Positions 4,374 through 64,000 of a stretch of 64,000 nt of DNA are shown here, in pieces. Each line of letters starts with the position of its first letter. Within the stretch, counting starts at the first letter, position 1. Under the pieces are notes generated by a model. It did not search any database. It worked only from the letters and a program-made list of their open reading frames with translations, and was not told the DNA's origin. The position numbers were made by a program, and so were the translations under genes. This DNA is from Capitulum mitella (lineage: Eukaryota > Arthropoda > Thecostraca > Pollicipedomorpha > Pollicipedidae): the NCBI GenBank assembly GCA_030062745.1, contig CP099839.1, forward strand, positions 32,408,904 to 32,472,903. The letters run 5' to 3'.

Positions 4374-5182
4374 GTAACATCAACACTGATGATGTACAGT
4401 CATCACATTGCATGTTCTTGATCAATAATCCGCACCAGCAGCGTTTGCATATTGGTGTGTGTGCGGTAAGTAGACGCTGCGTTGACTACATGGCGACTCC
4501 ATGCATTACAATGTTAAAAATCACGTTGAACAAAAACACTGTCTTTCCACAGTAGATCGCTACCAATGATCATGCAGGACCATCACACTGCCTGTTCTTC
4601 ATCAATAATCGTGTCAGTACCGTTTGCATATTGGTGTGCGCTACGTAAGTAGACGGTGCCTTGATTACGTGGGAGCCGTATGGGCAATAGCAATGCAATG
4701 TTAAAAACCACATTGAAGAAAAAACACTGTCCCTGCCCACTATAACGTCAGCAGTGCTGACGTTTGACCATCACATTGACTGCTCTTGATGAATAATTCG
4801 ACCAGCAGCGTTTCCATATTGGTGTGTGCCTTGTAAGTACACGGTGCGGTTCCCATGTGGGGATCGTACGGGTAATACCATTGCGTTGTCAAAGATCTCT
4901 CTGAACGAAAAACACTGTCTTTGCACTGTACAACGTCAGCAATGATGATGCACGGCCATTGCCTGTTCTGGATCAATAATCCGTAAAAGCAGCGTTTCTC
5001 TATTGCTGTGCGCTAAGTAAGCAGACGGTGCGAAGATCACATTGAACAAAAAACGCAGCCTTTGCACAGCATAAGATCATCCGTGATGTAAGACCATCAC
5101 ATTGCCTGTTGTTATCAATAATTAATTTCAGTAATGTTTGCATATTAGTGAGCGCTAGGTAAATACACACGCGTTGACGACG
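4374..5182 (+). repeat. Left arm of satellite palindrome
   Basis: This ~809-bp segment matches the reverse complement of 7691-8498 at roughly 97% by eye, including unit-specific deletions. That is far more similar than neighbouring units are to each other. Homology stops sharply after the shared GCGTTGACGAC at the inner end. Confidence 0.85.
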
Positions 5183-7690
5183 TGGGGGCCGTGAAGGCAA
5201 TGACATTGCAATGTTGAAGATCATGTTGGACAAAAAACATTGTTTTTGCGCAATATAACGTCAGCAATGGTAATCTTTGTCTTTACTTAGTATAACGTCA
5301 GTAACGGTGATATACGACCATTATTTTGCATGTTCTTGATCAGTAATTCGTACCAGTACCGATTGCATATTGGTGTGTGATAGGTAAGTAGACGGCGCGG
5401 TGACTACGTGTGAAGTGTGTGGGTAATAGCATTCCAAGATGAAAGATTACGCGGAAGAAAACACCTTCTTCTGCACAATATTACATCAACAATGATGGCG
5501 CACGGCCATCACGTTGCGTGTTCTTCATGAATAATGCGTACCAGTACCGTTTGCTTATTGGTGTACGCTAGGTAAGTAGACGGTGCGGTGGATCTCTCAC
5601 ATTAGAACGCGTAACCCACACGGTCCCAACGTAGCCATCCCAACATAGCCAACGTAGCACCGTCTAGTTACCAAACGCACACCAATAGGCAAACGGCACT
5701 GGTGTGGACCTATGATAAAAAAGGGCAATGTGATAGTCGCACACCATTGCTGACGTTATGCTGTATAAAGAATGCGTTTTTCTTCAACGTGATCTTCGCT
5801 CCGCCGACGTAACTAGCGCACACCAATATGGAAACGCTGCTGGTACGGATTAGCGATCTTACAGGCAATGTGATGTCGTACGGTATCATTGCTGACGTTG
5901 CTTTGTGCAAAGACAGCGTTTTTTTGTTCAACATGGTCTTTAACATTGCAGTGGTATTACCCAGACGGTCCCACGTAGTCACCGCACTGGCCACTTACTT
6001 AGCACACACCAGTACGCAGACGACGCTGGTACGGATCATTGATCAAGAAGAGGCAATGCGATGGTCGTCGATCATCATTGTCCATGTCATATTGCGTGGA
6101 AAAAACGTTTTTACTTCGGCGTAATCTTTCACGTTGTCATGCTGTTACACCTACACGTTCCAACGTAGCCACCGCAACGTCTACTTACCTAGCGCACACC
6201 GGTATCCAAGCGGTACTGGAACGGATTATTGATCACGAACAGGCATTGTGATGGTCGTACATCTTTGGTGACGTTATTCTGTGCAAAGACCATGCTTTCC
6301 CCACGTAGTCAACGCACCGGCTATTTCCGTAGCGCACACAAACATGCAAACGGTAATGGCACGGATTATTCATCAACAACAGGCAATGCGGTGGGCGTAC
6401 ATTATCATTGTTGATGTTACATTGTGCTGAAACGACGTTTTTTCTTCAGCGTGATCATTCGCATTGCAATGCTATTAACCGCACAGTCCTAACGTGGCCA
6501 CCGCAGCGTCTGTTTACGTTGCGCACACCAATATGCGAACGGTACTATTCATCAACAACGGAGAATGTGAGGGCCTTACATTATTATTACCTGCAACATA
6601 TTGTTTGGTAAAAACGTTCGTTTTCATCGTGACCTTTGACGTTACAGTGCTATTACCCACACGCTCCCAACATGGCCACCACGTCTGCCATTACGCACAC
6701 GCTGCCATCCTACCACCACGTCAACTTATCTAGCTCACAACAGTACGAAATCGCTGCTGTCACGGATTGTTGATCAAGAACAGGCAATGCGATAGTGATA
6801 AATCATCATTGTTGACGTTATTCTGCGCAAACACGGTGTTATTTGTTTAGCGTGATCTTTAACATTAAATGCTTCTTCCCGTACATTCCCAACGTAGCCA
6901 CCGCACACTCTACGTGCATAGCGCACACCAATATGCAGACGGTGCTGGCGCAGATTATTACTCAAGAGCAGCACATGTGATGGCCATACATCATCATTGC
7001 TGACGTTGCACTGGGCACATACAGTGCTCTTTGTTTAACATGATCTTAAACATCGCAATGCTTTTGTCCATACGGTCCCTACGTAGCCAACGCACCGTCT
7101 ACTTACCTAGCGCACACCAATATGGAAACGCTGCTGATACGGATTATCGATCAAGAACAGGCAATGTGATGGTCGCACATCATCACTTATCTTGTCATAT
7201 TGTGCGGAAACGACGTTTTCACTTCAGCATGGTCTTTCACATTGCAGTGCTATTACCGACATATTCCTGACGTAGCGACCACACCTACTTACCCAGCGCA
7301 TACCAATATGCAAGCGTCCTGGTATGGGCTGTTGTTTAAGAATAGACAGTGCGATGGTCGTACATCACCATTGCTGGCGATCGATGTGCAAAGACAGTGT
7401 TTTCTTCGGTGTTATCTTAAGCATTGCGATGCTATTTGTCCATACGGTCCCTACGTAATCAACGTACCGTCTACTTACCTAGCGCACACCAATATGCAAA
7501 CGATGCTGGTACGGATTATTGATCAAGAACAGGCAATGTGATGGCTGTACGTCATCAGTGCTGACATTCAACTGTTCAAAGACCGTCTTTTTGTTCAAAG
7601 TGACCTTAAATATTGCAATGCTATTAGCCATACGGTTCCCACATAGCAATCCGATCAACAGCGTTTACGTAGGGACCGTTTTACGTAGGG

Positions 7691-8498
7691 TCGTCAACGC
7701 GCCGTGTATTTACCTAGCGTTCACTAACATGCAAACATTACTGGAATTAATTGTTGATAACAACAGGCAATGTGATGGTCTTACATCACGGATGATCTTA
7801 TGCTGTACAAAGGCTGCGCTTTTTGTTCAATGTGATCTTCGCACCGTCTGCTTACTTAGCGCACAGCAATAGGGAAACGCTGCTTTTACGGATTATCGAT
7901 CTAGAACAGGCAATGGCCGTGCATCATCATTGCTGATGTTCTACAGTGCAAAGACAGTGTTTTTCGTTCAGAGAGATCTTTGACAACGCAACGGTATTAC
8001 CCGCACGATCCCCACATGGGAACCGCACCGTGTACTTACAAGGCACACACCAATATGGAAACGCTGCTGGTCGAATTATTCATCAAGAGCAGTCAATGTG
8101 ATGGTCAAACGTCAGCACTGCTGACGTTATAGTGGGCAAGGACAGTGTTTTTTCTTCAATGTGGTTTTTAACATTGCATTGCTATTGCCCATACGGCTCC
8201 CACGTAATGAAGGCACCGTCTACTTACGTAGTGCACACCAATATGCAAACGGTACTGACACGATTATTGATGAAGAACAGGCAGTGTGATGGTCCTGCAT
8301 GATCACTGGTAGCGATCTACTGTGGAAAGACAGTGTTTTTGTTCAACGTGATTTTTAACATTGTAATGCATGGAGTCGCTATGTAGTCAACGCAGCGTCT
8401 ACTTACCGAACACACACCAATATGCAAACGCTGCTGGTGCGGATTATTGATCAAGGACATACAATGTGATGACTGTACATCATCATTGTTGATGTTAC
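7691..8498 (-). repeat. Right arm of satellite palindrome
   Basis: Inverted partner of 4374-5182. The loop between the arms (5183-7690, about 2.5 kb) is made of the same satellite family. The arms therefore arose by inverted duplication of a block of several units, not by unit-by-unit amplification. Confidence 0.85.
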
Positions 8499-8620
8499 AT
8501 TGTAAGGAAACAACGTTTTTTTCATCAGCGCGATCTTTCACATCGCAAAGCTATTACCCACACAGTCCCAACGTAGTCACCGCACCGTCTACTTATCTGG
8601 CGCACACCAAAATGCCAACC

Positions 8621-11929: not shown

Positions 11930-13152
11930 TTAACCTCTATTCCCGGAGGGCTAGACAGTATGGCCGATTCCCGGCAGGGGGGGCGGATTCGGCCCCCCCC
12001 TGAGATCTCGAGAACTACTGGTCCGATTTTATCGCAACAAACGGCAATCCATTTGCCGTGACGTGAACTACATTTTTATAAAAAGAAATTTTCAAAATTT
12101 TTAAATTTGTGGATACAGGGGGGCAAAAATGTCAAAATGGGGGGGTACTTTTGGACTTCTTATAACTCCATTGTTTATGGACCGATTTCGATGAAACTGG
12201 CATGAATCGAGAGATTATGGATAGGGCTTTTACCATGGGTCCCCAAATCTGAAATTTTGAGAAAATTCATGGGCGTTCACAGGGTTTCAAAAATAGGAGG
12301 ATTAGTTTTCTAACAACTGGATGAACAAAAAAGGCAAACACCCTTTTTTGGCTTCTGCTAGTCATGTTATACTAAAGAAGTACAAATCGCATTACAATGT
12401 TTGTATAATGTTAGCATAGGCGGTGCCAGGGACATGAAAAAGGGGGAACTGTCATGGTCACACGTTTCTCAGATCAACTTGTGACCTTTGACCTTAAATG
12501 ACCTCCAGTGACCTTGGGGTCACTTGGAATGATCTCCTGTGCATTTAATGTTATCTTTAAACGTTTTCAATCATTTGAATTCACTCTATTTCAAAAATTT
12601 CATTTTATGGCTATTGCGATATAGGGTACGGGCACGGACATTTTAGGTAATAGCTCCGTGACCCGACCTGATATCAAGCTAAAACTTGATACACAAGTAG
12701 AAGGCACCCTTCTATGGTATATATATTCCGGGTTTGGCATTTGAAAAAAAACAGCCCCGAAATTATAGCAAAAAAAAACCAATTTTGACTTTTGACCTTG
12801 ACCTGACCTTGTAAAATGACCTCAGGAGAAGAAAACTATATCTGCACATTGCCCAACTATTAAGCTATACATCCATATAAAGTTTTAAGTTCTATCTTAA
12901 AAACTCTGTTTTTGGCAGACATTTTCGTTTTACCCTTAGCATGGCCAAAAATGGCATGAGGTGCCTCCCAAAAACGTTGCCGGGCTCCGCCCCTGAGCAA
13001 AATAGAATTTTGAAATTTTGTCACGGCACGTGGAAAGAATAGCTAGGAAAAGTCACCAAGTTTCGTGAAGCTGCGTTAAAAAGCCTATAATTGGCAAGCA
13101 AAAACCCCAAGGGGGGGGCGGATTCCGCCCCCCCTGCCGGGAATAGGGTTAA
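11930..13152 (+). mobile_element. TTAA-flanked non-autonomous DNA transposon, copy A (piggyBac-like)
   Basis: A 1.22-kb element bounded by TTAA on both sides and by terminal inverted repeats CCCTATTCCCGG (left copy has one base change). Near each end is a hairpin of a G run, a short palindrome and a C run (GGGGGGG-CGGATTC-type). Copies B (56769-57989) and C (62873-edge) are the same sequence in the opposite orientation. There is no transposase frame, so it must move in trans. TTAA target duplication and CCC..GGG ends are the known signature of piggyBac elements; the assignment rests on that. The interior carries clustered TGACCT (AGGTCA) words at 12482-12514. Confidence 0.8.
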
Positions 13153-15083
13153 CACACAAACACATCAACATGCACTTGGGTGGACATTAGGGCCCAGGAG
13201 GCTGTGCACGATAGCCCTGAACCCATGACAGCGTAAGAAGAACTTTTGCGAGCCATGTGCATGGTTGTTTTTAAAGTTCGTTCATCAGAGGTAAACCTGG
13301 TGATCCCCATATACTCAGTTTCCCTCTCTCCCCTGTTATTTTAACTTTGGGTTTCAACCACTTCATTTTCGGCTTTGATGGAAATGACTCTGGGCGCCGA
13401 ATGACCCTGCAGTCGGTGCGCCCCTAAGCCCCAATAACCAACCGATGGAAATGACTCAGAAAAATGTACATCACAGAACACTGTCAACCAGCACTGAAGA
13501 ATGCAGCAAACTAAGCACTGCGCACCCTTCACATATTGTGCAGCGTGTAGATGCAGGAATTGCTGCACTTAATGCCGGATGTTGCAAAAGCCTATTTTTT
13601 CAGTTGAAATGATATTGAAAAAGCCCACTTTTTCAATAACCTTCCCTTGATGCAAGGAATGCCCAGTGAGGTTGGTATGCATACCGCCCTCACCGGGCCC
13701 GCACCGCACTGCACGTCGTCTGCACCACACCGCACTGCTATCTGGCCTTGGACCACGTTTCAAATAGGCTAGGCTGTGCTTTGGAGTCATAACCTAATAC
13801 CATTGATGCCGTTTGACATCCGAGTGTTGACACTCTGGCCCATTGCTGGCATTTTGAGGCCAGAGAGCAAAGTCAAGGGCTGATGCCTGTTGATAAGAAG
13901 TATGACGTCTAGAGTGAGGAGCTAGTTGTGGTGCTCTGTTGGAATTTGATGGATGTCTGGCATGTGATGTGCACGATCAAATGTGGCATGACTTGTGCAA
14001 ACCGTAGCTATCGTCAAATGCTTCAGGTTTGACATGTCCTGTCATGATGCTTCACAAAACTCTGCTTTCAAGGCTGGGCTGTGTAGTTATGCATATATGG
14101 ATGGTGACATTTTGAAAGCATTATGTCTTAAGCTTTGTGCCACCTGGGCACATTTAGTTTCTTTTCTTGCTTATTTTTAGCAGTCGGTACCTAATACGGT
14201 TTTCTGTTCTGATCCATATGTCCAAATAATCGACCTTATGCTCTGCTGAGTCTTTATACTTCGCTGTGTGCGGTTTTCGTTCGTGACTGGATCGATCCCA
14301 TGCATGGGAGTGAAAGGAGACCCATCATAATTTACGATCTAACGTTTGTTAAGAGGTTATGAGTGAATGCAACTGGGAAGCCCAAAAATGCAGTGTAAGG
14401 AAACCACATGTTATATCACGTGAGCAAACGTACTGGTTTTGATTGACTTTGTTGACCGATTGGAATGGTAGATTCTGCTGAAAGTATCGTCAGTCGTCGT
14501 AAAAAAAAAATATTTGTCTCCTAGACATGCTCACCATAACGAATGCATCATGGCCTCAGAAATAGATTCACACGGAGTATTGGACACAGTTGGCCTGAAA
14601 ACGTACCGATGATGATTAATAGCTCAAGGCGAAGTATGGTCACTGATGCAGAATATAAACCTGCCTCAGCTAACAAAGAAGAAAGTCTCACTAATTATGC
14701 TGTAGTTCGGTTGCTTTGCAATAGTCCCTTAAACAGGCAAATAACGATGCAACGCCTGCAAAGCTTTACAACATAATGTGGATATGGCATGCATTGTCAT
14801 GTAATGGTGGAGCGCTTCACATCGTAACATTCGCCATGTAGGAACTTAGCTCCATCACAGTTCATGGATGGTAAGTTCATTGAACACAGTTCATTGAATG
14901 GCATATTGGCGTGTCATTTGGTGCCACTGACTTCCATGAAGGTACCCACCTCAGAGCTAGCTTGTCATGCGACAGGCAGGCATCAGGTCTGTGCTAGCGA
15001 TGGTTGTTGGGAGGATTATGATGCGTCGCTTTTCAGCATTGGAAGATCGTTTCGAAAACGAGAAAAATGCATCTCATATATGG
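13153..15083. other. No gene recognised; one short interspersed repeat
   Basis: Apart from the ~52-bp repeat at 13392-13443 I see no structured feature. Small open frames here have no motif. The TP53I13 promoter may extend into the right part. Confidence 0.4.
13392..13443 (-). repeat. Short interspersed repeat (SINE-like segment)
   Basis: Reads on the - strand as GGTTATTGGGGCTTAGGGGC followed by GCACCGACTGCAGGGTCAT. A close copy is at 27916-27970. This phrase resembles short repeats I know from arthropod genomes, but no Pol III boxes or tail were seen. Confidence 0.5.
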
Positions 15084-16195
15084 AAGCGGGGCAGTGCAGC
15101 CCATAATGGGCGGTGACAGTGGAACGGTGCGGCTTGCACTGATTAGTGGCAGTGGGACGGGGTAGCCTGCACCAGGCGATGACAGCGGGATGGTGCAGCC
15201 TGCACTGGGCGATGGTAGCGGGTCGATGTAACCTACACTGAGTAGTGGCAGCGGGGCGGTGCAGCCCGCACTGGGCGATGGTAGCGGGGCGGTGCAGCCC
15301 GCACTGGGCAGCGGCAGCGGGGCGGTGCAGCCCGCACTGGGCAGCGGCAGCGGGGCGGTGCAGCCCGCACTGGGCAGCGGCAGCGGGGCGGTGCAGCCCG
15401 CCCTGGGCGATGGTAGCGGGGCGGTGCAGCCCGCACTGGGCAGCGGCAGCGGGGCGGTGCAGCCCGCACTGGGCGATGGTAGCGGGGCGGTGCAGCCCGC
15501 ACTGGGCAGCGGCAGCGGGGCGGTGCAGCCCGCACTGGGCGATGGTAGCGGGGCGGTGCAGCCCGCACTGGGCGGCGGCAGCGGGGCGGTGCAGCCCGCA
15601 CTGGGCAGCGGCAGCGGGGCGGTGCAGCCCGCACTGGGCAGCGGCAGCGGGGCGGTGCAGCCCGCACTGGGCGATGGCAGCGGGGCGGTGCAGCCCGCAC
15701 TGGGCGGCGGCAGCGGGGCGGTGCAGCCCGCACTGGGCAGCGGCAGCGGGGCGGTGCAGCCCGCACTGGGCGATGGTAGCGGGGCGGTGCAGCCCGCACT
15801 GGGCGGCGGCAGCGGGGCGGTGCAGCCCGCACTGGGCAGCGGCAGCGGGGCGGTGCAGCCCGCACTGGGCGATGGCAGCGGGCGGTGCAGCCCGCACTGG
15901 GCGGCGGCAGCGGGCGGTGCAGCCCGCACTGGGCAGCGGCAGCGGGGCGGTGCAGCCCGCACTGGGCGATGGTAGCGGGGCGGTGCAGCCCGCACTGGGC
16001 GGCGGCAGCGGGGCGGTGCAGCCCGCACTGGGCAGCGGCAGCGGGGCGGTGCAGCCCGCACTGGGCAGCGGCAGCGGGGCGGTGCAGCCCGCACTGGGTG
16101 ATGGCAGCGGGGCGGTGCAGCCCGCACTGGGCGGCGGCAGCGGGGCGGTGCAGCCCGCCCTGGGCAGCGGCAGCGGGGCGGTGCAGTCCGCACTG
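15084..16195. repeat. 33-bp GC-rich minisatellite immediately upstream of TP53I13
   Basis: About 34 head-to-tail 33-bp units. Each contains AGCGGGGCGGTGCAGCCC and hence a GGGGCGG (GC box/Sp1-type) core. Units at the left edge (15084-15245) are degenerate; the middle and right are nearly uniform. Because 33 is divisible by three, several frames on both strands stay open for hundreds of codons (for example GxGSGAVQPAL on the + strand); these are artefacts of the period, not genes. Two adjacent units near 15880-15910 lack one G. The array ends about 75 bp before the TP53I13 ATG, so it lies in the promoter or 5' UTR. Confidence 0.95.
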
Positions 16196-16270
16196 GGCGC
16201 TGGAGCGCGCACGTCCGGCGGCGCCGGCCGGCCGCTGACGGGGCGCCTTTGTGTCGCAGACGGCGCAGCC

Positions 16271-41819: not shown

Positions 41820-41935
41820 CCCGGCTTACGTGGCCGCCAGCTCTGGCTTACACGGCCGCCGGCTCCGGCTTATATGGCCATCGGCTCCGGCTTACAACTG
41901 TTGTCTCCGGCTTACACGGCCGCCGGCCCGCTGGC
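41820..41935. repeat. ~22-bp minisatellite spanning the tankyrase stop codon
   Basis: CCGGCTTACACGGCCGCCGG and variants repeat about five times at 20-22-bp steps. The unit nearest the gene carries the tankyrase TAA (41914-41912); the others extend into the 3' UTR. Confidence 0.8.
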
Positions 41936-41989
41936 ATGGTTCTCGTCCGGTCGACAGATCTGGTATGTGATCAGGTACTCCGGGTATGC
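41912..41989 (-). CDS. TNKS: Tankyrase, last coding exon
   Basis: Encodes AYPEYLITYQICRPDENH then ASGPAAV and TAA. AYPEYLITYQI is essentially invariant in tankyrases; its Glu corresponds to the catalytic Glu of the PARP H-Y-E triad. The acceptor is TATGTTTGGTAG; phase 0 matches the upstream exon's GEQ|. The 25-residue end is a little shorter than in human tankyrase 1. The stop lies in a minisatellite unit. Confidence 0.93.
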   Translation of the reverse strand, partial: AYPEYLITYQICRPDENHASGPAAV

Positions 41990-43999: not shown

Positions 44000-44156
44000 C
44001 TGTTCTCCTCGGTACACGACGTATTCGGGAAAGCAGAGACCGCCGGCGCTGGGTCGGCCCACCACGCTGTGATGTCCCGGAGGCGCGTGGGCCATCTTCA
44101 TAGCTGAGAACTGCAGGAAGGACTTGCCCAGCGCAGCCCGGCACATCAGTAGCTGC
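44000..44156 (-). CDS. TNKS: Tankyrase, penultimate exon of the PARP domain
   Basis: Encodes [20 protein letters not shown], then [16 protein letters not shown] and YVVYRGEQ, a near-exact tankyrase signature. It starts with one base finishing the Arg codon left by the 52204 donor (acceptor GTGTCTGCAG) and ends in phase 0 at CAG|GTCAGC. Together with 41912-41989 it completes the fold of the catalytic domain. Confidence 0.95.
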
Positions 44157-52082: not shown

Positions 52083-52247
52083 CTGACACTGACCTGTGAC
52101 AAACGTAGCAGGAGCGGTCCTTGTGCACCGGGCAGCCATGACACTAACCTGTGACAAACGTAGCAGGAGCGGTCCTTGTACACCGGGCAGCCATGACACT
52201 CGCCTGTGACAAACGTAGCAGGAGCGGTCCTTGTGCGCCGGGCAGCC
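52083..52247 (-). repeat. 55-bp tandem triplication of exon end plus 5' splice site
   Basis: Units 52247-52193, 52192-52138 and 52137-52083 on the - strand each contain GGCTGCCCGG, AAGGACCGCTCCTGCTACG, TTTGTCACAG and a donor. Donors in order: GCGAGT, GTTAGT, GTCAGT. The encoded zinc motif is [14 protein letters not shown] in unit 1, [14 protein letters not shown] in unit 2 (zinc His replaced by Tyr) and [14 protein letters not shown] in unit 3. Confidence 0.95.
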
Positions 52248-52312
52248 CGTGCCGCCACCAATTCCATGAACGTACTGGTTACTCTTGGAAGAGTTTTCGG
52301 CAAAGTAGATGC
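52204..52312 (-). CDS. TNKS: Tankyrase exon with catalytic Tyr and zinc site; end triplicated
   Basis: Encodes [20 protein letters not shown] then [17 protein letters not shown]. It includes the Tyr of the H-Y-E triad and the Cys-x2-His-x4-Cys-x2-Cys zinc ligands that distinguish tankyrases from other PARPs. The acceptor is CTTCCCTTTGCCAG, phase 1 in and phase 2 out. The donor at the in-frame end is CACAG|GCGAGT, a GC-type donor with an otherwise strong match. The last ~44 coding bases plus donor are repeated twice more downstream (52083-52192). The two downstream donors (GTTAGT, GTCAGT) have canonical GT but would add 55 or 110 nt and break the frame into the 44156 exon. Confidence 0.93.
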
Positions 52313-55666: not shown

Positions 55667-55850
55667 CTGCTCCAAACATGCCACCGATGTAGGCGTGACG
55701 TTCATCGAAGCCCTTGTGCACAATGGCGTTGATAAAAGGTGAACCGTGGAATAGGATGCGTTCGCAGGGTTGGCCACCGTTCTCCTCGGCTACCTCCTTA
55801 CGCCGATGCAGATAGCGTTCCCAGAGGCGACGGTTCTGCACCTTCTGAAT
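55667..55850 (-). CDS. TNKS: Tankyrase exon, start of the recognised PARP catalytic region
   Basis: Encodes [40 protein letters not shown] and [20 protein letters not shown], ending AG. FHGSPF carries the catalytic His (NAD+-binding) and [18 protein letters not shown] is a tankyrase hallmark. The acceptor is taken at GGTACTGCCGCAG with a T run and a CTGAC branch-like site upstream. The donor is GCAG|GTGAGC, phase 1, matching G|GC of the next exon. Tankyrases are telomere/Wnt/spindle poly-ADP-ribosylating enzymes; the ankyrin repeats and SAM domain must lie further right (- strand) outside the window. The four exons total 528 nt, 175 residues plus stop. Confidence 0.94.
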
Positions 55851-56225: not shown

Positions 56226-56768
56226 CCCCTAAAACGGCACACCTGACGTTTTACGTTACTTTCATTGCAACACCCACCGCATGGACTATGTTGACAGCAA
56301 ACCAACGAAAAAGATGAAGAGAACATACACGTATACATATTCACGTATACATGTATACATGGGATACAGGGTCCATAGCACGCCCGGGATCTAATTACAC
56401 AAAAAGGCAAGAAAACTCACAACAGATGCCGCACAAAGAGTCGCAGTCAGCTGTTACTTCAACTTTCGCTCGTCGGCCTTTCATCTACCACGCGAAACGG
56501 TTTTAGCATCATAAGCGCATTACTATTAGGTGACGACGTACTACTACTGTTACTTAAGACACAATGGTCCGTTACAGTGCAAGTGCTCCATACCTTGCCC
56601 ACAAAGAATAGCCGAAGCACTACCGTATATTTTAACATTTCACTTGTTTTTGTATCACTAATGATCCGCCAATGGTCCTACTGTGCATTATCAGGAAGCA
56701 CACGGTTCGGTTTCAAAAGATACTAGGACTGAAGATCATTGGTAACGACACGAGGACTTAAGTGCTGC

Positions 56769-57989
56769 TTAACCCTATTCCCGGCAGGGGGGGGGGGCGG
56801 AATCCGCCCCCCCTCGGGTTTTTTGCTTGCCAATTCTAGGCTTTTTAACGCAGCTTCACGAAACTTGGTCACTTTTCCTAGCTATTCCTTCTACGCGCCG
56901 TGACAAGATTTCGAAATTCTATTTTGCTCAGGGGCGGAGCCAGGCAACGTTTTTGGGAGGCACCTCAGGCCATTTTTGGCCATGTTCAGGGTACAAGGAA
57001 AATGTCTGCCAAAAACAGAGTTTTTAAGATAGAACTTAAAATTTTATATGAATGTATAGCTAAATAGTTGGGTAATGTGCATATGTAATTTTGTTTATCT
57101 GAGGTCACTCTACAAGGTCAGGTCAAGGTCAAGTCAAAATTTGTTTTTTCGCAATAATTTCGGCGCCGTTTTTTCAAATGCCAAACCCGGAATATATATG
57201 ACGTAGAAGGGTGCCCTCTACTTGTGTACTAAGTTTCAGCTTGATATTAGGTCGGGTCACGGAGCTATGACCTAAAATGTCAGTGCGCGTACCCTATATC
57301 GCAAAAGCCAAAAAATGAATTATTTGGAATAGAGTGAATTTAATCGATTAAAAACGTTTACAGATAATACTGAATGCACACGACATCATTCCAAGTGATC
57401 CCAAGGTCACTGGAGGTCATTTAAGGTCAAAGGTCACAAGTTGATCTGAAGAACGTGTGACCATGACAGTTCCCCCTTTTTCATGTCCCTGGCACCGCCT
57501 ATGCTAAAATTATATACAAACATTGTGATGTGATTTGTACTTCTTTAGCATAACATGACTAGCAAAAGCTAAAAAAGCGTTTTGGCCTCTTTTGTTCATT
57601 CCGTTATTAGAAAACTAATCCCCCTATTTTTGAAACCCTGTGAACGCCCATGAATTTTCTCAAAATTTCAAATTTGCATACCCATGGTAAAAGCCCTATT
57701 CATAATCTCTCGATTCATGCCAGTTTCATCGAAATCGGTCCATAAACAACGGAATTATAAGAAGTCAAAAAGTACCCCCCATTTTGAAATTTTTGCCCCC
57801 CTGTATCGACAAATTTCAAAATTTTGAAAATTTCTTTTTATAAAAATGTAGTTCACGTCACGGCAAATCGATTGCCGTTTGTTGCGATGAAATCGGATAA
57901 GTAGTTCTCGAGATCTCAGAGGAGGGCCGAATCCGCCCCCCCCTGCCGGGAATCGGCCATACCGTCTAGCCCTCCGGGAATAGGGTTAA
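56769..57989 (-). mobile_element. TTAA-flanked non-autonomous DNA transposon, copy B
   Basis: 1.22 kb, TTAACCCTATTCCCGG at one end and CCGGGAATAGGGTTAA at the other. Inverted relative to copy A and about 96% identical to copy C by eye. The right end carries an extra ~30 bp (..GGCCATACCGTCTAGCCCTC) between two GGGAAT-type motifs, so the subterminal regions are asymmetric. Four AGGTCA words lie at 57404-57436. No transposase. Confidence 0.85.
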
Positions 57990-58238: not shown

Positions 58239-58387
<149 letters not shown>

Positions 58388-58389
58388 CC

Positions 58390-60735
58390 AGAAATCAGGT
58401 TCACAAAGACACCATTTAACCCTCGTCCGACTGGGACGGATCGATTGAGGACCACCCTGCGGTTTCGCCTAAAGATGGAACGCAGATTTTCTTCTGTTTC
58501 CGCGTTTTTCACATTTTTTAACTTGAGTAAGTTTAACACTTCAACTTCAACTTCAAGTTTCAGAATTTCTCATGCAACACGCCCTGACCTGTGGCCTTTT
58601 TGTCCAGGTCATGCTGGTCTTGATGTTAATCAAATCAAATAACACATTTCATTTCTTGGACATTGTGCATGTCATGCTGGACATTTAATACTGTGTTACA
58701 TATTTCTTTTACAAATGTAGGTGTCAACGACCTGATGTTAATGTACGGAAAGGGTTGGGTCATCAAGGTCAAACTAGGTCAAACGTGCACATCAGAAATT
58801 GACGTCTAACGTCATTATAGTTTGGTATAAGGGTGTGAAGTACACTTCCAAGAATGCTGTATTCCAAGCCACCACGTCAACATTCTTTTGACAAACATCG
58901 TTCAACCTACTGTAAAGCGACTTTGTTAGTCAAGACCACGCTACGCCAGAGAAATTCGAAAATTCAAAATTCGATTGTGCCACTCGGAGATGACCTTCAC
59001 AAAGCATCGCAGCCGCCAGTGATATGCTAAGACAGACTGTGTGCCCGCCTACCTGCACACCAAATTTGGTGGGTCTAGCTCGCGTGGTTTTGAACAAATA
59101 ACTTTCAAATAACAAATAACAAAAAATTTCCGTAAAATGACGGGAGCACCCCTAATGGTGACCTTGGGACCTAAGGTGGCCGTGACCCCAAATAGGCGAC
59201 CCCCTCCCAGCCAGAGGAGAATCGGTGTGCCACTTTTAGCACGTCTGTCTTCGCTCGTTCGACATGTGACTCGACAAAGGTGTGGTGGTAGCACTATGCC
59301 TCCTATTGCATGTTTCAGTTTTGATGACATTTTCGTGGTCTGAGAGGTCACCCAATGACCTATACCTAAAAACTAATAATTTCTCATGGCTAAGACAACG
59401 ACCAATACGCTGGTGATTACTGGGTCAAGTTATTTTGGGAACTATGGAAATCACATGGATAGGGAAACTTCCACATATTTTACATGACCGCGTAGAAGTC
59501 ATTACCGTGACACAGGTCACCTGCTGAGCTGAAACCAAAAGATCGGATATCGTTGAGTAGCTGACGTGACGAGCAACACACCGGTTTTTACCGCGTTGCT
59601 CTATCTCTCTGCGTTCAAAAGTTAGTAGAGGGGTTGTTTTAGGGCCCATCCCTATTGGGCGAAGGAATAAAAATGGCCCCGCCGGATGAAGGTGAACGTT
59701 TCGGAAAAAAAAATCATTTTTCATCTTCAGAATACATTTAGTTATCGCGGTGCCATACATTACGTTTGGCCAGTTACATACAAGGCCATGCGTAGTAAAT
59801 TTAAAAGTCCTTTCACTCTTCATATTTTCTAACAGTAAAAATTCTATGCAAGATTTCACCCTCAGGCTAGCAAAGCTAACTTCTGTTCCTCGAATGCATT
59901 TCACTGGTTCATGATATTCCTAGACTGCGTGTCACTGGTCATTCCTAAGTCTTAAGTTCCAGTGTTACGCATGATTTTATCTGGACGCTCAGCGACGGTT
60001 AGCATTTTAGTACAAAAAGGGGCTCATGTACGTAAAGACGTCTATGGTCACCACCCGTCATGAGCATCGTCGCATTCTCAGTCAGTCTCTGCCTTGTCAG
60101 AGTTTTGTCATACACCTGTCGTGAGTACCGGGCAGGAACACCATCACGAAGGTATAAGTTGTCTAGATGGATAAGTTGTTGTAGAACCAATGCGCGATTT
60201 ACGAAGCGAGCAGTCTTCGTGTGAACATACCTATTGATACACTACATTGACGCTCTTCAACGTGCGGTGTCTTTTAGTCGGGTTGTTTCTCATGACAAGG
60301 CTTTGGATCGTTTTGTTTCAGTAATAAGTGATGAGCTAAGTTCTTCGTTTCTTATCCTAGGGGCCACATGCATACGTATTATGTCCATCATCGCTTTTCA
60401 TCTGTTTCGTAAGATAGTGTCATCTGACTTTCGCAGAACAATTTGATTACACACCTGCTTACCGTGCCAGGCTTATTATGCATCACAGTGCCCATGTACA
60501 GTCCGATTTCGTTGTCAACAGTCGTGCTTAACGAACGAAAAGGTGATAAAAGATATAACACGCAAACACGTTACCCCTAGGGTAAGAATCGAAAAACTTA
60601 AGCTCATCATTTATTACCGAAACAAAACGATCCAAAATCTTGTCATCAGAAACAACCTGACTTAAAGACGCAACCAGTTGAACAGCGCCGATGTCGTGTA
60701 TCAATAAACATGTCCAGACGAAGACTGCAGGTTTC
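58390..60735. other. No gene recognised; AGGTCA-containing repeat debris
   Basis: TTAACCCTCGTCCGACTGGG at about 58418 resembles the end of element E, but no partner end was found. AGGTCA/TGACCT words recur at 58580-58800, 59340 and 59515. A 159-codon - strand frame (59904-59425) has no motif. Confidence 0.4.
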
Positions 60736-61969
60736 TTAACCCGCGCACGACCGTCGGTCCGTCCCGAACACCGGCGACTGGGGGGGGGGGGCAGTTGACT
60801 GCCCCCCCTCTAACTCACGAACGGTTGGTCGCACGATAAATATAAGCATACCGTTGGAAAGCCCGTCACGAGTAGAGCTCGAAACTGGTCTCATTTTTAG
60901 TTTTAGATAATATGTAAGCCAATTTACGCCCTATATATGTTTCCTCATAGCCGACTGCATGAGACCGAGAAATGGCCTGAATCTCAAGGGCTGTAACTAA
61001 TAACGCATAGGTAAAGGCACCAGCGCACAAGTAAATGTCCGCGGATGCCGATACACGTCTAATTTCCACAGATTTGTTCAATACATACGCCGAAACGTTG
61101 AGTTAAAGACACCGTAATTCTCCCGTCAGGCGCTACTGTGCGCCGCTGACGTATGCGGTACCAAATTGACGGGAACTAATTTTAGCGTTCCTTTATTTTC
61201 GCAAAAAAGACGATCTATGTAAATTCGATTGATCTTTGTGGTTCTTGTGATGGTTTCTCATGCTTAAATTTTGGAAAAAATGATTAGTTGCCAATCTACA
61301 AAGTTGGCGGGGCTTTATTCGCGAGAGCCTGTTTATTTCCAAAATATGCTACTTTTTCAAACTTTTTGAGGTTCGTGGTATTGATTACGTCTGTGCAAGC
61401 TAGTTGTGCCATTTTCTACCCATTCTGAGTAATTCATCGTCGATTTTGACGGTGGTACATTTTGGCCCACTTCAGTTATTCGTGACCTGACCTCAGGTCA
61501 ATGGCTGGAAGTCACTGATACTTTGTCCAATGACGGTAACTAGGTGTCTGCTTCACTCCACACTAAAAATGTGATGAAATATTCCGTCAATTTCAGAAAA
61601 AAACGGCGATATGTCTTAAAAATGGGCTTGACCTTAGGTCAATGACCCCGAAAATTCCGAAAAATCCGAGATAGCAGATTTGTTGCATCTATCACGATCA
61701 CTAATCCCTGAAAGTATTATTGAGATATCTTGTTTTGCGAAAAAGTTAGAGGGCGCTAAACTTTTTTGGACTTAGGTCTGTTTGACCTGGTCTAGGTCAG
61801 GCATCTGACCTGACCTGAGGTCAAAATTTTGACAAGAGACGTAAAATTGATGGAGCAAAAGGTACACAAAGTTTTGTGACTCTGTGTTAGTTCGTTCTCT
61901 CGCAATCCCAGAAAAACCTCAGGGGGGGGCAGTCAACTGCCCCCCCCCCCCCAGTCGGGGACGGGTTAA
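60736..61969 (+). mobile_element. TTAA-flanked DNA transposon of a second family (element E)
   Basis: 1.23 kb bounded by TTAACCCG on the left and CGGGTTAA on the right. Near both ends is a G run, CAGTTGACTG (or CAGTCAACTG) and a C run, forming a perfect long hairpin. The interior differs from elements A-D but again contains TGACCT/AGGTCA words (61480-61830). No transposase frame. Piggybac-like by TTAA and CCC..GGG ends. Confidence 0.75.
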
Positions 61970-62872
61970 GTCGCACTACATTGATGCTACAACTTCTCTA
62001 TCTAGAAACTTACCAATCACCTCCGTGTAATGCTCGTGCCCAGCACTCACGACAGACCCAGATCGGACGATTTCACTGTTCCGTGATGGTCGTGGTATTC
62101 AGTCGGCGCGTGACGTCCGTGGTATTCACAGGCCTACACCGCCAATGCACTTATTGCTTTAATGGAATTTAAATGTCGTCGTATTTTCTGAACAGAGATA
62201 ATGCAATTTAACAATGCACATATAATAAAGCAACCCTTCATTAACATATGGGCCATAAGCCGCTTCTGCCCAACTTTTACCGTTCACCACGTTTTTACCG
62301 TTTACCGCGTACACCGTGTCAAATCGCGCCATGCAGATCCATATCGATATGTCCTTTTCACTGATGCTATTTTAATTCCGTATGCGATCTAAGAACCGTA
62401 CTTCGTGGTTTCCGGTACCCCTACTACAAGTATCTTTTGGAACATGTCCACACGATCTGACCTAACCCGACAGTTCGCAGAACTTTTGGGGACTCGAAAA
62501 ACGATAAACCAGGAGTCTTCCTATTACTTGCTGTGTAGGATGTGATGGAGCAAAACCCAATTCTTGCTTCCTTATGTAGGTCCTTATGTTCGTCACCAGT
62601 GGTTACCGGAATCCGCATTCCGACTTTTCCAAGATTTTCCCATTTCCGATCCGGAAATCAGTTGGACATAACAATTTCACTTGAAAAAAATCTGGACAGC
62701 CTATTGCAAGCCAACTGCCAAAAAACGCGATAAAACCAAATTCTGCTTAATATTCCAGTTATAAACCCAATTATGGCACAAAACTATCATTTTGATCCCG
62801 TGACTCGACAACATGTTCGATTAAGGTTCTGCTTTTTACATAACCAATTCAATTCCACGTGTTTAACCCTAT
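61970..62872. other. No recognisable feature
   Basis: Short interval between elements E and C, with only short motif-free frames. It lies in the presumed upstream intron of tankyrase. Confidence 0.4.
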
Positions 62873-64000
62873 TCCCGGCAGGGGGGGCGGAATCCGCCCC
62901 CTCGGGTTTTTTGCTTGCCAATTCCAGGCTTTTTGACGCAGCTTCACGAAACTTGGTCACTTTTCCTAGCTATTCCTTCTACGCGCCGTGACAAAATTTC
63001 GAAATTCTATTTTGCTCAGGGGCGGAGCCAGGCAACGTTTTTGGGAGGCACCTCAGGTCATTTTTGGCCATGTTGAGGGTAAAGGGAAAATGTCTGCCAA
63101 AAACAGAGTTTTTAAGATAGAACTTAAAACTTTAAATGAATATATAGCTAAATAGTTGGGCAATGTGCATATGAAATTTTGTTTATCTGAGGCAACTTTA
63201 CAAGGTCAGGTCAAGGTCAAAAGTCAAAATTTGTTTTTTCGCAATAATTTCGGCGCCGTTTTTTCAAATGCCAAACCCGGAATATATATGACGTAGAAAG
63301 ATGCCCTCTACTTGTGTACCAAGTTTCAGCTTGATATCAGGTCAGGTCACGGAGCTATGACCTAAAATGTCAGTGCACGTACCCTATATCGCAAAAGCCA
63401 AAAAATGATTTTTTTGGAATAGAATGAATTTAATCGATTAAAAACGTTTACAGATAATATTGAATGCACACGACATCATTCCAGGTGACCCCAAGGTCAC
63501 TGGAGGTCATTTAAGGTCAAAGGTCACAAGTTGATCTGAGAAACGTGTGACCATGACAGTTCCCCCTTTTTTATGTCCCTGGCACCGCCTATGCTAACAT
63601 TATACAAACATTGTAAAGCGATTTGTACTTCTTTAGCATAACATGACTAGCAGAAGCTAAAAAAGTGTTTTGGCCTCTTTTGTTCATTCCGTTATTAGAA
63701 AACTAATCCCCCTATTTTTGAAACCCTGTGAACGCCCATGAATTTTCTCAAAATTTCAAATTTGCATACCCATGGTAAAAGCCCTATCCATAATCTCTCG
63801 ATTGATGCCAGTTTCATCGAAATCGGTCCATAAACAACGGAGTTATAAGAAGTCAAAAAGTACCCCCCCATTTTGACATTTTTGCCCCCCTGTATCCACA
63901 AATTTCAAAATTTTGAAAATTTCTTTTTATCAAAATGTAGTTCACGTCACGGCAAATCGATTGCCGTTTGTTGCGATGAAATCGGATAAGTAGTTCTCGA
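62873..64000 (-). mobile_element. TTAA-flanked non-autonomous DNA transposon, copy C (cut by window edge)
   Basis: Starts TTAACCCTATTCCCGGCAGG and follows copy B nearly base for base to the window end, where about 95 bp would remain. AGGTCA cluster at 63494-63526. Element-internal frames such as 63901-63695 are not genes. Confidence 0.85.

Follow-up and report, generated by a model that had tools for sequence, protein, structure and literature searches.

GC donors are published as making up less than 1% of donors (PMC7072748; PMC2490688). The second source adds that they lie nearer to the consensus at the remaining positions, that they are enriched in alternatively spliced genes, and that regulated splicing of nematode let-2 requires a C at position +2 (PMC2490688). 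For human +2T>C changes, only ~15-18% are estimated to give wild-type transcript (PMC8375439). Multiplied splice signals are known from intron gain by tandem duplication, the Rogers model, for which PMC4974935 gives ATP2A1, fission-yeast SPOG_01682 and potato RdRp as cases; in the fission-yeast case one intron spans four copies. A third comparison is with clusters of alternative 5′ splice sites and with latent ones (PMC8890436 for the latter), in which several usable-looking, mostly frame-shifting donors follow one exon.

Here we analyse a 64,000-nucleotide stretch of the genome of Capitulum mitella (the window), in which a tankyrase exon end, together with its 5′ splice site, is present in three tandem copies. 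The locus shares with U2-type GC-AG introns a GC at +1/+2 within an otherwise near-perfect consensus (CAG|GCGAGT) and an AG acceptor, and differs from them by the presence of two tandem exon-end copies with GT donors directly downstream. As in the Rogers model, a duplicated AG|GT segment gives extra splice signals, and the yeast copies likewise lie inside one intron. In contrast to that model, the duplication at this locus straddles an existing donor, and its first effect would be competing 5′ splice sites, not a new intron. The likeness to latent 5′ splice sites is in the several donors past one exon; here, however, the alternatives repeat the authentic site with few changes, and the one that is in frame at the normal acceptor is the GC one. 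Among the literature matches listed, none describes triplicated donors in exactly such a layout, which does not prove that a precedent is absent.

The array consists of three head-to-tail units of 55 bp on the minus strand (52247-52083), which are 94% alike and contain no indels:

52193..52247, minus strand: repeat unit 1, the in-frame exon end and the start of the intron; donor CAG|GCGAGT, last exon base 52204
52138..52192, minus strand: repeat unit 2, intronic if the unit-1 donor is used; donor CAG|GTTAGT, last exon base 52149; TAC replaces the CAC that we take to encode a zinc ligand
52083..52137, minus strand: repeat unit 3; donor CAG|GTCAGT, last exon base 52094; beyond the unit the intron sequence is unique

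Tandem Repeats Finder delimited the array as 52084-52247 (period 55, 3.0 copies, 94% matches, no indels, score 293), in agreement with an earlier note on this DNA that had described a tandem triplication of exon end and donor at 52083-52247. The three donors read from the sequence, their last exon bases and the start of the next exon at 44156 also agree with that note. The array covers the end of tankyrase exon 18, including the zinc-site codons, and the 5′ splice site. Pairs of units differ at 3 or 4 of the 55 positions, and the five variable positions overall are in an A/V codon, in an H/Y codon, at donor positions +2 and +3, and at the last base. A 218-bp query around the array gave a single match in the genome (477 Mb, 16 contigs); this and the 94% similarity over three 55-bp units rule out a chance repeat as the origin of the array. 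A tandem repeat of an AGGT-containing segment, as described by the Rogers model, is present, since units 2 and 3 carry CAGGT; unit 1 carries CAGGC. The gene thus has a real, small oddity, a 5′ splice site in three tandem copies of which the one that keeps the frame at the normal acceptor has GC.

A tblastn search with human tankyrase gave ordered matches on a single strand to ankyrin exons, to one SAM and one linker exon and to four PARP exons. The matches are 53-91% identical to human tankyrase-2, and the order of domains is that of a tankyrase: ankyrin repeats, then SAM, then a PARP domain of the tankyrase type. The exons extend over ~114 kb of assembled sequence, of which ~22 kb are probably a false duplication. 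We call the gene near-complete, because its first ~25 residues, with the start codon, and some of the linker ahead of the SAM domain were not located. At all introns other than 6 and 14 the exons found join without a stop. The exons around the array, in our own numbering, are the following:

55667..55850, minus strand: exon 17, IQKV...GGMFGA; donor CAG|GTGAGC
52204..52312, minus strand: exon 18, 109 nt as spliced with the unit-1 GC donor
44000..44156, minus strand: exon 19, the segment with the putative catalytic Glu; acceptor 44156, with a possible acceptor shifted by 4 nt at 44152; donor CAG|GTCAGC
41912..41989, minus strand: exon 20 (last), coding part, AYPEYLITYQICRPDENHASGPAAV and stop; the end is counted from 25 codons plus the stop

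Across the junction of unit 1 with 44156, 89 residues align gap-free to human tankyrase-1 (E 2e-51; 31 PDB sequences matched, 2 alignments shown), which bears out the identity that the earlier note had assigned. The protein corresponds to human tankyrase-1/2, to which the exon 18-19 junction aligns gap-free and the other exons align in order. The pattern C-x2-H-x4-C-x2-C and the stretch EYVVYRGEQ, a conserved Glu region, are both aligned to human; we take the former to be the zinc ligands and the latter to contain the catalytic Glu of the PARP domain. When the genome was searched with the 89-residue stretch and the best candidates were scored, no second tankyrase catalytic domain was found: the four matches with E <0.001 were all at the locus of the array, and one match with E 2.4 was on C11. 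Within this scope a second functional tankyrase elsewhere was rejected, and tankyrase appears to be single-copy in the genome. A Pfam PARP search gave six matches on two other contigs; it missed the tankyrase locus, which indicates that it was not sensitive.

Eight spliced products were examined for their reading frame. The product of the unit-1 donor and acceptor 44156 has the normal, gap-free tankyrase end, and the other two donors are out of frame at that acceptor, just as the earlier note had it. Use of the unit-2 donor with 44156 results in a longer, frameshifted C-terminus that replaces the catalytic end; its stop is in the last exon, so nonsense-mediated decay (NMD) is not expected. With the unit-3 donor the stop lies 146 nt before the last junction, and NMD is therefore expected. 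The "truncated product" of the earlier note thus applies to unit 3, with its early stop, but not to unit 2 at 44156. The AG 4 nt downstream (44152) changes these outcomes: the unit-2 donor is now in frame, with 17 extra amino acids and no stop, use of the unit-1 donor leads to a stop 146 nt ahead of the last junction, and use of the unit-3 donor to a frameshift with a stop in the last exon. The claim that only the GC donor keeps the frame consequently holds for the three donors at 44156, but not absolutely. Acceptor 44152 is weak, having a score of 5.37, about the sixth lowest of 50 real acceptors, and 10.8% of the 3558 AGs on the minus strand of the window score as well. The exchange of His for Tyr in unit 2 reads correctly at the level of codons (GTG TAC versus GTG CAC in unit 3), but that frame was unread in all eight products examined. 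Two GT sites 4 and 6 nt past the GC donor, likewise able to keep the frame given suitable acceptors, were ruled out, as they scored below all 49 GT donors of the set described below.

Donors for comparison were inferred by homology in tankyrase, clathrin heavy chain (CLTC), VCP and five proteasome ATPase genes. The set comprises 51 non-target junctions, namely 16 of tankyrase and 35 confident ones out of 41 in the other genes; the 6 non-confident junctions, among them one low-scoring GC call (L048), were left out of the donor counts. Tankyrase introns 6 and 14 are also outside these counts (the best automatic choice for intron 6 was a poor GC one), the donor of intron 11 was read by eye, its automatic choice being poor, and for intron 15, which has two near-equal choices, the second-ranked one was used. 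GT was present at 49 of the 51 donors and GC at 2, these being the donor of tankyrase intron 10 (GGG|GCAAGT, the best-scoring in-frame choice; coordinate 123090 when the window and loci L013-L027 are stitched together, locus L018) and one of CLTC (AAG|GCAAGT). At a rate of 1% the probability of at least 2 GC donors in 50 is ~0.09, indicating that GC donors occur here without being shown to be unusually common. The GC at unit 1 that the earlier note had singled out is real, but the other GC donors inferred in this gene and genome make it less odd than that note suggests. A special U1 snRNA that reads GC donors was not found among the best 42 of 7158 candidates scored: these yielded at least 11 U1 snRNA genes in two clusters on contig C15 (~7.74-7.78 Mb and 16.58-16.61 Mb), and all 11 genes found have the canonical pairing bases ACTTACCTG.

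The strength of the three donors was assessed with a context matrix built from the 49 GT donors and applied without +1/+2. Outside these two positions unit 1 equals or exceeds 48 of the 49 GT donors, and units 2 and 3 are average (22 and 23 of 49, respectively). The GC donor of CLTC equals or exceeds 39 of the 49; that of tankyrase intron 10 reaches only 10 of 49, and this intron therefore does not follow the rule of a strong context. A GC donor with strong flanking consensus, joined to an AG acceptor at a frame-preserving junction, fits a U2-type GC-AG intron, as is the case for unit 1 and 44156. Each unit shows a single departure from CAG|GTRAGT, at +2 in unit 1 and at +3 in units 2 and 3; C or T at +3 is found in 6 of the 49 real donors. 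Predicted U1 duplex energies are -7.3, -7.7 and -7.5 kcal/mol for units 1, 2 and 3, compared with -11.7 for CAG|GTGAGT. When +1/+2 were included, in a matrix of the 15 GT donors of the tankyrase gene, unit 1 scored lowest (8.6, versus 10.3 for unit 2 and 11.2 for unit 3), with a penalty for unit 1 that depends on the pseudocount. The extra donors look usable, since GTCAG or GTTAG cores were inferred as real donors in tankyrase introns 4, 12 and 19 and in CLTC and PSMC4. The sequence thus predicts a real competition between donors, the outcome of which is not readable from DNA alone.

A second, larger duplication lies nearby. The SAM and linker exons of tankyrase lie in a 17.1-kb segment that is present twice, the copies being 98.9% identical:

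window 58268-64000, continuing to C1:32484290: copy 1, which ends 2 bp before a 500-N gap
C1:32489161-32506251: copy 2

The copies differ by 112 substitutions (0.66%), and the SAM (231 nt) and linker (176 nt) stretches compared are identical between them. The segment is probably a false haplotypic duplication at a scaffold join. If the two copies are the two haplotypes of the animal, and assuming neutral, equal rates and a star tree, the 5 changes among the three 54-bp units compare with 0.53 expected (P ~2e-4, or ~2e-3 at 1.1%), small numbers in either case. The array seems old on account of this excess of unit divergence over the putative haplotype difference, which suggests that it predates typical allelic divergence and that the gene has persisted in its presence.

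Several other repeats were observed in the region. A GT dinucleotide array of ~1 kb is located just before the second copy of the duplicated segment (C1:32488216-32489277; stitched 79313-80374, locus L014), and the 3.4 kb between the 500-N gap and this array have no other match in the 214 kb examined. A 1.2-kb repeat family, probably a mobile element, is present at window 56766-57989, near 11930-13160 and 62860-64079 and at many places in the 214 kb, its members being ~82-96% alike. The window also contains a 33-bp minisatellite at 15148-16199 (~32 copies, 89% matches) and, at 4374-8619, related repeats in both orientations that are ~64-86% alike.

Taken together, these results lead us to favour, as the probable explanation, that the unit-1 GC donor gives the productive mRNA and that units 2 and 3 are competitors which cost output of active enzyme. 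A 55-bp segment over the end of exon 18 and its donor would have been tandemly duplicated to three copies. Productive mRNA most likely results from splicing of the exon-proximal CAG|GCGAGT, a U2-type GC donor, to 44156, by which units 2 and 3 would be removed as intron. The latter would act as competing GT donors of ordinary strength, giving some frameshifted RNA: a frameshifted C-terminus from unit 2, and an early stop with expected NMD from unit 3. Being frameshifted or NMD-bound, these products would lower the output of active enzyme. A working product is expected, as the exons located are open and spliceable (introns 6 and 14 excepted) and the best candidates scored included no second catalytic domain. 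The donor used, and the share of each, we infer from the sequence.

The GT donors outscore the GC donor when +1/+2 are counted, and units 2 and 3 might accordingly win the competition. The RNA would then be mostly frameshifted or subject to NMD, with the donor-3 frame ending 146 nt short of the last junction and the catalytic end missing from the donor-2 product, and the allele would be a loss-of-function or strongly weakened one, perhaps heterozygous in the animal sequenced. We consider this unlikely: exons 19 and 20 are open and conserved, no second catalytic domain turned up among the best candidates scored, and the gene has not decayed even though the array, with its 5 changes versus 0.53 expected, seems old. 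Slightly less likely still is a regulated switch, in which tissue or stage would set the choice between GC and GT donors and thereby control the level of active tankyrase. The three donors with similar predicted U1 pairing within ~110 nt, and the enrichment of GC donors in alternatively spliced genes and the +2 C of let-2 reported in PMC2490688, are in line with such a switch; against it, the array may simply be a minisatellite straddling a junction. Of the 214 kb examined, 4.1% consists of repeats with a period of at least 10, and such repeats contain 3 of the 33 junction positions tested, that of the array among them.

That the real locus has one unit and the array is an assembly artefact seems to us quite improbable. 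The tankyrase gene does hold the probable false (haplotypic) 17-kb duplication, whose copy 1 starts 6 kb upstream of the array and ends at the 500-N gap 23 kb upstream of it. The three units, however, have their own differences and are not exact copies, 165 bp is short for long reads, and the window is without N, so that there is no gap near the array. Splicing of the unit-2 donor to 44152 is very improbable; the product would be an in-frame enzyme, free of stops, with 17 residues added after the zinc site, and the donor is average, but the acceptor is weak (5.37, about sixth lowest of 50) and the insertion would fall inside a stretch conserved with human. We regard as slightly more remote yet a nascent mini-intron or recursive splicing, in which the unit-1 donor is spliced to the AG that closes unit 2 or unit 3, removal of the long intron follows and the same in-frame mRNA results. 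The first of these steps would excise 55 or 110 nt and recreate CAG|GTTAGT or CAG|GTCAGT. Each unit end is a median 3′ splice site (rank 27 of 50; 2.6% of the 3558 AGs are as good), and tandem duplication of an AGGT segment is a known route to new introns (PMC4974935). Whole-copy removal as in the Rogers model would fit in frame and in 3′ splice-site score, but 55 and 110 nt are shorter than every intron measured (35 in housekeeping genes, the shortest 145 nt, and 15 in tankyrase, the shortest 230 nt), and the GC donor would still be required. We keep it as a minor rival.

Productive use of the unit-1 donor, with units 2 and 3 as competitors, also allows a more speculative extension, to which we give little credence: the GC copy would carry all active tankyrase, and the two GT copies would be built-in brakes, one NMD-bound and one giving a stable protein with a replaced catalytic end, so that the level of a Wnt/telomere enzyme would be tuned by the copy number and the donor bases of a short minisatellite. 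The array is a natural side-by-side contest of one GC and two GT donors with near-equal predicted U1 pairing and a near-identical exon side, in a gene that is apparently single-copy, and it bears on the relative weight of exon proximity, +2 and +3 in the choice of donor. It may show at an early stage how tandem duplication multiplies splice sites, be it as tolerated noise or as raw material for regulation.
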